Below the pieces are notes generated by a model that was not told where the DNA came from, did not search any database, and saw nothing but the letters and a program-made list of their open reading frames with translations. This document shows, one piece after another, positions 54,091-55,978 of a stretch of DNA of 64,000 nucleotides (position 1 is its first letter; every line of letters begins with the position of its first letter). The stretch lies in assembly GCA_003225315.1 (NCBI GenBank), contig QHZD01000017.1:390973-454972 (forward strand), in the 5' to 3' direction. The DNA comes from Acidobacteriota bacterium. Its GTDB lineage: Bacteria > Acidobacteriota > Terriglobia > Acidiferrales > UBA7541. Both the position numbers and the translations under genes were made by a program.

Positions 54091-54119
54091 TTGACTTCCC
54101 CCAACCCCTCCGCTATAAA
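54091..54119 (+). promoter_or_regulatory. Sigma70 promoter of the SAM-II/thrC transcript
   Basis: TTGACT (54091-54096) and TATAAA (54114-54119) are 17 bases apart. The predicted start is near 54126, about 40 bases before the riboswitch. Confidence 0.8.
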
Positions 54120-54144
54120 TAATATAGCTGCGGTTGCGGCGAGT

Positions 54145-54161
54145 CGACTGCTCTGCAGTCG
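54145..54161 (+). repeat. Perfect hairpin before the SAM-II core
   Basis: CGACTGC-TCT-GCAGTCG forms a 7-bp stem with a 3-base loop in the leader RNA, directly upstream of P1 of the riboswitch. It is not part of the known SAM-II fold. Confidence 0.6.
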
Positions 54162-54164
54162 CAC

Positions 54165-54216
54165 AGACACGTGGCGATTTAGGGCAACTTGCTCCACGTA
54201 AAAAACTGCTAAAGAG
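54165..54216 (+). promoter_or_regulatory. SAM-II riboswitch
   Basis: P1 is ACGTGG (54169-54174) pairing with CCACGT (54194-54199). The loop contains CGATTTA, then a segment ending CTTGCT; after P1 comes TAAAAAACTGCTAAAG. This matches the SAM-II layout known from alphaproteobacterial metA leaders (GTGG-TGATTTG, CTTGC-x-GCCACG, TTAAA, GCTAAA). Loop bases GCTC (54191-54194 region) can pair with GAGC after GCTAAA to make the pseudoknot. SAM-II normally represses methionine/SAM genes when SAM is high. It is followed by an intrinsic terminator and threonine-synthase-like and sulfur-carrier genes. Confidence 0.88.
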
Positions 54217-54247
54217 CTTTTCGAGTTTCTTAGAAGATTTTCTGAGA

Positions 54248-54278
54248 CCCTCCGAGCACTTTGGCACGGAGGGTTTTT
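54248..54278 (+). terminator. Intrinsic terminator in the riboswitch leader
   Basis: CCCTCCG (54248-54254) and CGGAGGG (54267-54273) form a 7-bp stem followed by T5. It lies 32 bases after the riboswitch and 128 before the thrC start, so the riboswitch probably controls read-through. Confidence 0.85.
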
Positions 54279-54406
54279 CGTTTCTTCCCCTCCCTGCTGC
54301 CCTAATCGAATTCCATGCGCCCGCTGCCCGGCTATTCGGTGCGTGCCGCCTTGGTGGCTCTCACTGATTGTTGATTCTTGATGGCTTGTATAAAGGAACT
54401 TGCGTT

Positions 54407-55672
54407 ATGACCACTAACGGGCTTTACGAACTGCGATGTCGAGAATGCGGCAAGACTTGGGGCAACGTCCCCCGCTCTTTCTGCGAAGATTGCTTCTCTC
54501 CCCTCGAAGTCGCCTACGATTACGACTCGCTGAAGAAAATTGCCCGCCGGGAAAACCTCGCCAGCCGCGACTTCAACATGTGGCGCTATTCCGAGCTTCT
54601 CCCTCTTCCCGAAGACTTCGTTGGTCCAAATGCCGTCGGCGGCACTCCGCTGGTCGCCTCGCGCAAGCTTGCCGCAAAATGGGGGCTTAAGAATCTCTAT
54701 TTCAAAAATGACGCCGTTTGCTTTCCTTCGCTCTCCTTCAAAGACCGCGTTGTCGCCACGGCTCTCTCGGCGGCGCGCCGTTTTCATTTCACGACAGTCG
54801 GCTGCTCCTCCACCGGCAATCTCGCCAACGCCGTTGCCGCACAAGCCGCGCAGCAAGGATTCGACGCCTGCGTCTTCATTCCCGCCGACCTGGAGTCCGC
54901 GAAAATTCTCAACACCGCGGTCTACGGCGCGCGCATCGTGCGCATCAACGGCAACTACGACCACGTGAATCGCCTGTGCGCCCAAATCGCCGATCGCTTT
55001 CAGTGGGGCCTCGTCAACGTCAATCTGCGCCCCTACTATTCCGAAGGCTCGAAGACGCACGGCTACGAAATCGCCGAACAGCTCGGCTGGACGTTGCCCG
55101 ATAACGTTGTCGTGCCCATGGCCGGCGGCTCGTTGATTACCAAAATCGCGAAGGCATTCCGCGAATTGGTTACCCTGGGCTGGGTCGAAGCCAAGCCCGT
55201 AAAATTCTTCGGCGCGCAAGCGACCGGCTGCTCGCCCATTTCCGATGGTGTGAAGCGCAATCTCTCGCGCTTCGAACCGCAAAAGCCCAACACCATCGCG
55301 CGCTCGCTTGCCATCGGCAATCCTGCCGACGGCCCCTTCGCGATCAAGCAGATTCGGGACTCCGGCGGATGGGCCGAAGATGTCTCCGACCCCGAGATCG
55401 TCGACGCCATCAAACTTCTAGCCGAAACCGAAGGCATCTTCACGGAAACGGCCGGTGGCGTTACGGCAGGCGTCACGCAAAAACTCATTGCTCAAAATCG
55501 CATCAAGCCTGATGAAACTACCGTCGTCTGCATCACCGGCAATGGCCTGAAAACCACCGACGCCATTGCCGCGGAATTTCCGGCCTCCGAGGCCATCGCG
55601 CCGCGCCTCGAAGCCTTCGAGGCTTATCTCGACGCGCAACTCGGCGTCACTGTCGCAGGCGCTAAGGCTTAA
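54407..55672 (+). CDS. thrC: Threonine-synthase-like PLP enzyme
   Basis: A 421-residue protein of the threonine synthase family, which uses O-phosphohomoserine. The N-terminal zinc ribbon (CRECG at 11-15, C26, C29) and the PLP Lys112 in SLSFKDRVVA are clear, as is the phosphate loop (SSTGNLANAVAAQAA) and VVPMAGGSLITKIAKAF. The ATG has AAGGAA eight bases before. It lies behind a SAM-II riboswitch and just before a MoaD/CysO-like gene. Classical threonine synthase is not controlled by SAM, so it may make homocysteine or another sulfur compound instead; that is inference. Standard threonine synthase remains the default call. Confidence 0.85.
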   Translation: MTTNGLYELRCRECGKTWGNVPRSFCEDCFSPLEVAYDYDSLKKIARRENLASRDFNMWRYSELLPLPEDFVGPNAVGGTPLVASRKLAAKWGLKNLYFKNDAVCFPSLSFKDRVVATALSAARRFHFTTVGCSSTGNLANAVAAQAAQQGFDACVFIPADLESAKILNTAVYGARIVRINGNYDHVNRLCAQIADRFQWGLVNVNLRPYYSEGSKTHGYEIAEQLGWTLPDNVVVPMAGGSLITKIAKAFRELVTLGWVEAKPVKFFGAQATGCSPISDGVKRNLSRFEPQKPNTIARSLAIGNPADGPFAIKQIRDSGGWAEDVSDPEIVDAIKLLAETEGIFTETAGGVTAGVTQKLIAQNRIKPDETTVVCITGNGLKTTDAIAAEFPASEAIAPRLEAFEAYLDAQLGVTVAGAKA

Positions 55673-55699
55673 TTGAAACTAGATAAGGAGAATTAAGAA

Positions 55700-55978
55700 A
55701 TGCCCGTGACCATCGAAATCCCGACAGCGTTCCGCCGCTTCACCGACGGCGCACCAAAAGTGGACTGTAGCGCGGCCACCGTCGCCGACGCCCTCAACGA
55801 ACTCACGTCCCGTTTCCCCGATCTATCGCGTCACGTTCGCGACGATCAGGGCCAGATCCGCCAGTTCCTCAACGTCTATCTCAACGAAGAAGACATTCGC
55901 TTCCTCGGCGGTGAATCCTGCTCCCTCAAGGAAGGCGATCGCGTTCTGCTGGTTCCCTCTATAGCCGGCGGCTGCTAG
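55700..55978 (+). CDS. MoaD/ThiS/CysO-like sulfur carrier
   Basis: A 92-residue beta-grasp protein: VTIEIPTAFRRFTDG, QFLNVYLNEEDIRFL and LKEGDRVLLVPSIAGGC. Sulfur carriers end in Gly-Gly, which is turned into a thiocarboxylate; here one Cys follows the Gly-Gly, so trimming by a protease would be needed, as reported for the HcyS carrier of Wolinella. The size and the 'N-E-E-D-I-R' stretch resemble CysO of Mycobacterium. AAGGAGA precedes the ATG, 27 bases after thrC, so the two are co-transcribed under the SAM-II riboswitch. Confidence 0.87.
   Translation: MPVTIEIPTAFRRFTDGAPKVDCSAATVADALNELTSRFPDLSRHVRDDQGQIRQFLNVYLNEEDIRFLGGESCSLKEGDRVLLVPSIAGGC

Follow-up and report, generated by a model that had tools for sequence, protein, structure and literature searches.

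In the CysM–CysO–Mec route to cysteine, a pyridoxal phosphate (PLP) enzyme acts on a phospho-amino acid together with a carrier thiocarboxylate. In the HcyS/HcyD/MetY system of Wolinella succinogenes, a carrier thiocarboxylate supplies the sulfur of homocysteine; the tail of the carrier is trimmed by a protease, and the synthase is a MetY-type enzyme that acts on O-acetylhomoserine. A 64,000-nucleotide (nt) stretch of the genome of a soil-dwelling member of the Acidobacteriota (assembly GCA_003225315.1, contig QHZD01000017.1; G000:C1:390973-454972 in our genome set), hereafter the window, holds a locus that can be compared with these two systems and with a third, the MetM–MetO pair of Streptomyces albulus. 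According to Hasebe et al. 2024 (doi 10.1128/aem.01247-24), as excerpted in PMC12172450, S. albulus MetM is a homocysteine synthase that uses O-phosphohomoserine; the same excerpt places an S-adenosylmethionine (SAM) riboswitch upstream of metM, names a metO gene and mentions homologues in cyanobacteria. The relevant passages of PMC12172450 also state that ThrC of Microcystis aeruginosa, 51.6% identical to MetM, was assayed as a threonine synthase/deaminase, and that the putative sulfur carrier beside Microcystis thrC resembles metO. Price et al. 2018 (PMC5764234), in the passage on homocysteine synthesis, held that at least one further pathway was still to be discovered.

We consider it very likely that the locus in the window is an operon of metM and metO controlled by a SAM-II riboswitch, and that its MetM makes homocysteine from O-phosphohomoserine with carrier sulfur and thereby replaces the homoserine acyltransferase route. 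Its features are the following (positions are those of the window).

54091–54096 and 54114–54119, + strand: sigma-70-like promoter, TTGACT and TATAAA with a 17-nt spacer, read by eye.
54165–54222, + strand: SAM-II-type aptamer, below the Rfam gathering thresholds; a model built from relatives, with the window in its training set, gives 80.9 bits at 54158–54227.
54170–54174 and 54194–54198, + strand: CGTGG and CCACG, the two sides of aptamer stem P1.
54176–54181, 54189–54192 and 54208–54213, + strand: aptamer segments GATTTA, TTGC and GCTAAA.
54207–54214, + strand: TGCTAAAG, 5′ arm of a proposed antiterminator, overlapping the conserved GCTAAA of the aptamer.
54244–54278, + strand: intrinsic terminator hairpin and T run, from fold energy, kept in aligned relatives.
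54259–54266, + strand: CTTTGGCA, 3′ arm of the proposed antiterminator, within the terminator hairpin.
54407–55672, + strand: metM-like gene for a ThrC-family PLP enzyme of 421 amino acids (aa) with an N-terminal CxxC...CxxC, from profiles and its place in a MetM-like clade.
55700–55978, + strand: metO-like gene for a ThiS/MoaD/CysO-type sulfur carrier of 92 aa ending in SIAGGC, from profiles and PDB matches.

With the CysM–CysO–Mec route the locus would share the kind of chemistry, and its carrier is CysO-like, whereas the enzyme is of the CysM family there and of the ThrC family here; in the genome of the window, the CysM–CysO route is encoded in an operon separate from metM–metO. The Wolinella route likewise draws on carrier sulfur for homocysteine, but through MetY and O-acetylhomoserine. 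The S. albulus system, for which conversion of O-phosphohomoserine to homocysteine is given in the excerpted report, has the same combination of a ThrC-like enzyme, a carrier-like gene and a SAM riboswitch. The window differs from it in having a SAM-II leader, a single residue after the Gly-Gly of the carrier, and a place in an Acidobacteriota lineage where genomes with metM mostly lack MetX and MetA; the gene of an actinobacterial relative, from Nonomuraea, has a SAM-I leader instead. Microcystis ThrC, by the account of its authors, belongs to the same family and has a MetO-like neighbor, but its gene is, in the passages of PMC12172450 that describe it, without a SAM riboswitch. The first-pass annotation, made from the letters of the window alone, had proposed a homocysteine route not described before. 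That novelty is lost, MetM and MetO having been reported in 2024 in the work excerpted in PMC12172450, while the proposal of a carrier-fed homocysteine synthase acting on O-phosphohomoserine appears well supported as the best reading, with a mechanism that is probably right. As far as our searches show, what would be new is the SAM-II leader with its probable antiterminator, the phylum-wide avoidance of MetX and MetA, and the lack of conservation in the carrier tail.

The promoter, aptamer, terminator, ThrC-family gene and Gly-Gly-Cys carrier form one unit, as had been noticed at first sight and as is confirmed by reading, by profiles, by the terminator fold and by aligned relatives. The ThrC-family gene is preceded by AAAGGA and the carrier gene by AAGGAG, and 27 nt separate the stop codon of the enzyme from the carrier start. 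The promoter was not listed in a consensus promoter scan that demands T as the last base; TTGAC is kept in five of six aligned leaders, window included. The closest named relatives of the ThrC-family gene, among the matches listed, come from metagenome-assembled genomes (MAGs) of Acidobacteria gp2 (84–90% identity; the listing comprised the best 80 loci, and very near records were possibly left out).

The enzyme matches Pfam PALP at 219.8 bits and NCBIfam thrC (TIGR00260) at 271.5 bits, above the cut-off of 167.1, and its top PDB matches are threonine synthases. In a phylogenetic tree, 26 MetM-like members were split from ten threonine synthases with a support of 100/100; Nonomuraea and cyanobacterial members stood in for S. 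albulus MetM in this tree, one row (L130) was dropped for want of a readable frame, and six of 20 ThrC loci (L185–L204) passed the motif filter. The MetM-like clade includes members from Acidobacteriota, Cyanobacteria and Planctomycetota, a Neomarinimicrobiota, a Desulfobacterota and the Nonomuraea actinobacterium. With few exceptions, its members carry P[ST]LSFKDRV, STGNLAN and NVNLRPYYxEGSKT in place of the NPTGSFKDRG, STGNT and NSVNPxRxEGQKT of classical ThrC. The window genome has two further matches to TIGR00260 (291.1 and 170.1 bits, both above the cut-off), and the two further ThrC-family genes lie on contig C29 (291 bits, with a homoserine-kinase-like gene just upstream) and on contig C16 (570 bits with PRK08197); the ThrC-like protein is, as had been supposed, not the sole candidate threonine synthase. 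The gene upstream of the true thrC on C29 (1332–2003 of locus L184) encodes a small ATP-binding kinase. At another locus (L204, G183:C76:6551-9716), two ThrC-family genes stand in tandem, one of them a divergent metM-like gene with 48% identity.

The distribution of MetX and MetA was surveyed in 199 Acidobacteriota genomes. The enzyme was counted at E ≤ 1e-80 (44 genomes) or, in a stricter set, at at least 50% identity (32 genomes), and cuts of E ≤ 1e-60 for MetX (fragments in G077 and G109 included) and E ≤ 1e-20 for MetA were set in this analysis. MetX or MetA occurs in none of the 32 genomes of the stricter set and in 61 of the 167 others (Fisher p 3.6e-6, inflated by kinship among genomes; the 167 include G112, in which the terminal part of a metM gene lies at a contig end). 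The class to which the window belongs is represented by 21 genomes: 16 with metM, counting the G112 gene cut by the contig end, lack both MetX and MetA, and all five without metM have MetX. The gene avoids homoserine acyltransferases across the phylum. In the window genome (4.98 Mb), MetA was not found and MetX gave no full-length match, the best being a partial one of 105 bits (E 4.2e-30). The first-pass annotation had named a lone thrC and a complete standard homocysteine pathway as findings that would refute it; neither refutes it here.

Two unrelated riboswitch classes precede the gene. In the 44 genomes, SAM-I lies within 700 nt upstream in 23, SAM-II in five, SAM-I at 2.3–2.4 kb upstream in four and neither in 12. 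Within the stricter set a SAM riboswitch is found at this short distance in 26 genomes (21 SAM-I, five SAM-II), and four more have SAM-I about 2.3–2.4 kb upstream on the same strand. The leader of the Nonomuraea homologue is a SAM-I of 68.7 bits. A SAM-II-type model built from relatives (R1, described below) had no match in 58 metM loci without SAM-II matches, and 12 of the 16 such loci scanned with Rfam carry a canonical SAM-I, above the cut-off, just upstream. In the window genome, neither SAM-I nor a second R1 aptamer was found with genome searches whose stricter filters lose weak matches. That SAM-II control is unusual, as had been remarked, holds for this operon, where the SAM-I leader is commoner, and does not hold for the pathway.

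Judging by comparison with relatives, the element at 54165–54222 is a form of SAM-II that is missed by the Rfam thresholds, and it is predicted to bind SAM. It has the features common to known SAM-II (RF00521 and RF01726), namely GAUUUA, UUGC, GCUAAA and the P1 stem, and differs in that all Acidobacteriota copies scored fall below the Rfam cut-offs and that the copy in the window precedes metM–metO. An Rfam scan of the full window at gathering thresholds gave no match. Relatives of the enzyme gene bear the same aptamer, in some cases in two copies, and most copies have a hairpin (by eye) and a T run of their own downstream; with SAM_alpha (RF00521), nine matches of 23.0–33.9 bits, all below 36, were obtained in five of six aptamer-bearing loci, while the element of the sixth (L053) fell short of E 1. 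A search of the window genome with RF00521 returned no match, and control genomes were likewise silent, so this is not counted as absence. Passages of PMC2258182, PMC9481103 and PMC9373788 describe SAM-II aptamers that are followed by terminators or occur in tandem, and long loops are listed from Bacteroidetes and marine samples in the corresponding part of PMC2864571. A literature search on SAM-II with Acidobacteria gave nothing on this element among the matches listed.

The R1 model was built from 14 sequences of relatives, window included, and retrieved 46 matches in 22 of the 199 genomes. The first long gene downstream is metM-like in eight cases, of family PF01053 in eight, of homocysteine S-methyltransferase type in 27, a sulfite reductase in two and a peroxiredoxin in one; these genes were assigned by reading the first long frame, and seven representatives were confirmed with Pfam. 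Methionine enzymes thus follow 43 of the 46 matches, or 35 of 38 once the eight training sequences (seven before metM, one before PF01053) are removed. The P1 stem is 92.1% paired over 53 aligned copies, in an alignment that had been fitted to P1; both sides vary in three of its six pairs, a value reached in 3 of 500 shuffles, and 23 of the 53 copies have the outer pair open. With the partners slid by +1 as a control, five both-side-change cells appeared in two pairs, with only 23.3% pairing. Because the covariation of P1 is weak and the alignment had been fitted to the stem, genomic context is the stronger argument for the aptamer. Folded on its own, the aptamer shows no unusual stability (z −0.72; 46 of 200 shuffles do equally well) in a fold program that is blind to pseudoknots. 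The sole R1 match without an obvious methionine or sulfur-assimilation gene is G009:C26:78191-78261 (L161/L182), before a gene that looks peroxiredoxin-like by eye. Matches before homocysteine S-methyltransferase-type genes (family f22; e.g., L149, L163 and L170) represent an aptamer subtype with GAGTTA or GATTTA and with TTGCGGCCACG or TTGCGACCACG in place of TTGCTCCACG. Loose pattern matches in L102, L107 and L121 looked like chance and were rejected.

The leader is predicted to be a transcriptional OFF switch with a probable antiterminator. The terminator at 54244–54277 folds with −20.7 kcal/mol (z −4.12, none of 200 shuffles as good); a simple terminator scan did not list the hairpin at 54244–54278, which is conserved in aligned relatives. 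The segment UGCUAAAG (54207–54214), which holds the conserved GCUAAA, can pair at all eight positions with CUUUGGCA (54259–54266) in the terminator loop. The same pairing is complete in 11 of 15 leaders compared, several of which are close relatives (0 to 11 of 500 base shuffles do equally well); the other four pair at 7, 7, 7 and 5 positions, matched by 34 to 377 of 500 shuffles. The partners covary between G and C, AAAG leaders carrying CUUU and the fully paired AAAC leaders carrying GUUU. The minimum-energy fold of the whole leader contains the antiterminator (z −2.98). At low SAM, the aptamer segment UGCUAAAG would pair with CUUUGGCA of the terminator loop, letting transcription read through; with SAM bound, GCUAAA would be held in the aptamer, the terminator would form and the operon would be off.

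The carrier matches ThiS at 47.6 bits, and its best PDB matches are 4n6e_B and 3dwg_C, the latter of which we take to be CysO. It is a beta-grasp protein ending in GGC, whose Gly-Gly would be exposed only after trimming. A carrier gene lies within 3 kb downstream of the enzyme gene in 25 of the 44 genomes and in 23 of the stricter 32. The terminal cysteine, to which significance had first been attached, is not a conserved feature: 48 of the 77 adjacent carriers that were read end exactly at Gly-Gly, the rest have many different tails (C, CI, CC, AI, SF, SL, TI, SEL, TES and more), and closest relatives differ. Elsewhere in the window genome there is a CysM–JAB–CysO–MoeB/rhodanese operon whose CysO also runs past Gly-Gly, ending in GGVPAME, and which could in principle trim and charge the metO carrier. 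In genome G009, two aptamers stand before metM and its carrier gene, which share a 7-kb stretch with JAB, a carrier–MoeB fusion and a gene that looks CysM-like by eye. The same aptamer occurs in G157, a genome with MetX, before a cluster of PF01053, JAB, carrier–MoeB–rhodanese fusion, MetX and aspartokinase genes (4832–10965 of L053), an arrangement like that of Wolinella. A 2006 paper recorded operons that combine a carrier, E1, JAB and a cysteine synthase for an acidobacterium (PMC1779556); the term threonine synthase is absent from its excerpted text. Carrier open reading frames of 485 aa had at first looked like fusions to ThrC, but scans of two of them showed a carrier joined to MoeB and rhodanese. 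The window genome also has a third and weaker match of carrier type, at G000:C50:58849-59130 (33% identity, E 1.5e-10).

According to the metM–metO model, MetO would lose the residue after Gly-Gly, be adenylated and receive a thiocarboxylate; the most likely agents are the MoeB/rhodanese and JAB proteins that the CysM–CysO operon encodes. MetM with PLP would remove phosphate from O-phosphohomoserine, and the carrier sulfur would attack the gamma carbon, instead of water adding at the beta carbon. Homocysteine would then be freed from the carrier, and the homoserine acyltransferase route would be replaced. An alternative that we regard as unlikely keeps the same substrate and product and has free sulfide as the sulfur source, with the carrier accessory or engaged in another sulfur pathway; it differs from the metM–metO model only in the sulfur donor, and our estimates for the two overlap and do not sum to one. 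A sodium-sulfide assay meant to mimic MetM, described in the excerpted part of PMC12172450, and the nine of 32 genomes in which no carrier was found within 3 kb speak for free sulfide. Against it, the carrier gene adjoins the enzyme gene in the other 23 and in cyanobacterial, planctomycete and Nonomuraea loci, and the window genome already has a separate CysO carrier.

The two strong PF01053 proteins of the window genome raise another alternative, in which homocysteine would come, as in plants, from a cystathionine gamma-synthase that uses O-phosphohomoserine and cysteine, and the ThrC-like pair would have some other SAM-regulated task. The first of these proteins scores 467 bits with the cystathionine gamma-synthase model (cut-off 513), but its best model is that of cystathionine gamma-lyase/homocysteine desulfhydrase (495.6 bits, also below the cut-off). 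No other R1 aptamer was found in the window genome, and two metM-bearing genomes, G140 (52% identity) and G159 (47%), gave neither a PF01053 match at E ≤ 1e-30 nor MetA, nor MetX at the cut; we regard this alternative as very improbable. It is very unlikely that the enzyme is an ordinary threonine synthase with an incidental carrier and incidental SAM control: the NCBIfam thrC score, the shared PLP fold family and the threonine synthase activity in vitro given for the Microcystis homologue in PMC12172450, as excerpted, favor it, but the genome has two other ThrC-family genes, the clade is separate from ThrC at full support, and the SAM-type leader recurs within 700 nt in 26 of 32 genomes and further upstream in four more, with MetX and MetA avoided.

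Several findings weigh against the metM–metO reading. The window genome is 97.6% complete, so missing genes are not proven absent, and it holds the two PF01053 proteins. The aptamer scores 24.0 bits with SAM-II (RF01726, cut-off 44) at 54165–54222 in a local Rfam scan and 22.6 bits with SAM_alpha (cut-off 36, E 0.0064 in 501 nt) at 54161–54233; the first-pass annotation had treated a score below threshold as sufficient to set the SAM-II assignment aside, and the relatives, with methionine enzymes behind 43 of 46 R1 matches, overrule it. Covariation in P1 amounts to four cells only. The nine genomes in which no carrier was found within 3 kb count here as well. MetX accompanies the gene in two of the 44 genomes (G077 and G125) and MetA in two others (G175 and G188); in all four the enzyme has 47–49% identity. 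No MetX match in the 199 genomes or in 14 controls reaches the NCBIfam cut-off of 500 bits, and MetX presence therefore rests on the E ≤ 1e-60 cut. Weaker MetX matches occur in some metM genomes, among them G103 (the largest, E 2.1e-40, nearly full length) and G054 (8e-34); these and the partial match in the window genome were taken for other hydrolases. The kinase on C29 has as its best match a shikimate-kinase-type homoserine kinase of Desulfovibrio at 32 bits, below the cut-off, and no Pfam match. Finally, the Microcystis homologue seemingly is not fully MetM-like in the cell, in the view of the authors as excerpted in PMC12172450.

A wider proposition, which we hold to be evenly balanced, is that many Acidobacteriota lineages make homocysteine de novo through MetM–MetO alone, which repeatedly displaced MetX there, that SAM-I and the SAM-II missed by Rfam, two unrelated classes of SAM-sensing RNA, replaced one another on the operon, and that MetO has a disposable, fast-changing tail cut by a JAB protein shared with the CysO route, so that one charging machine would serve both sulfur amino acids. 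The homologues in cyanobacteria, planctomycetes and others may mark the same route there. Genomes without MetX and MetA can pass for methionine auxotrophs, a gap that the SAM-controlled MetM–MetO pair would fill; family models label the pair a threonine synthase and a MoaD/ThiS-type carrier. As a riboswitch example, the operon presents two unrelated SAM-sensing classes in related lineages, with a divergent SAM-II missed by current Rfam thresholds.

Upstream of the operon, 53530–54094 of the + strand holds a frame for a HicB-like antitoxin (PF15919, 37.8 bits) and, after it, a small frame that by eye resembles a HicA toxin; the −35 element of the metM promoter marks the end of this second frame. 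A group II intron domain (RF02005, 115.2 bits) was matched close to metM in a gp2 MAG (L056, 2509–2736, − strand).

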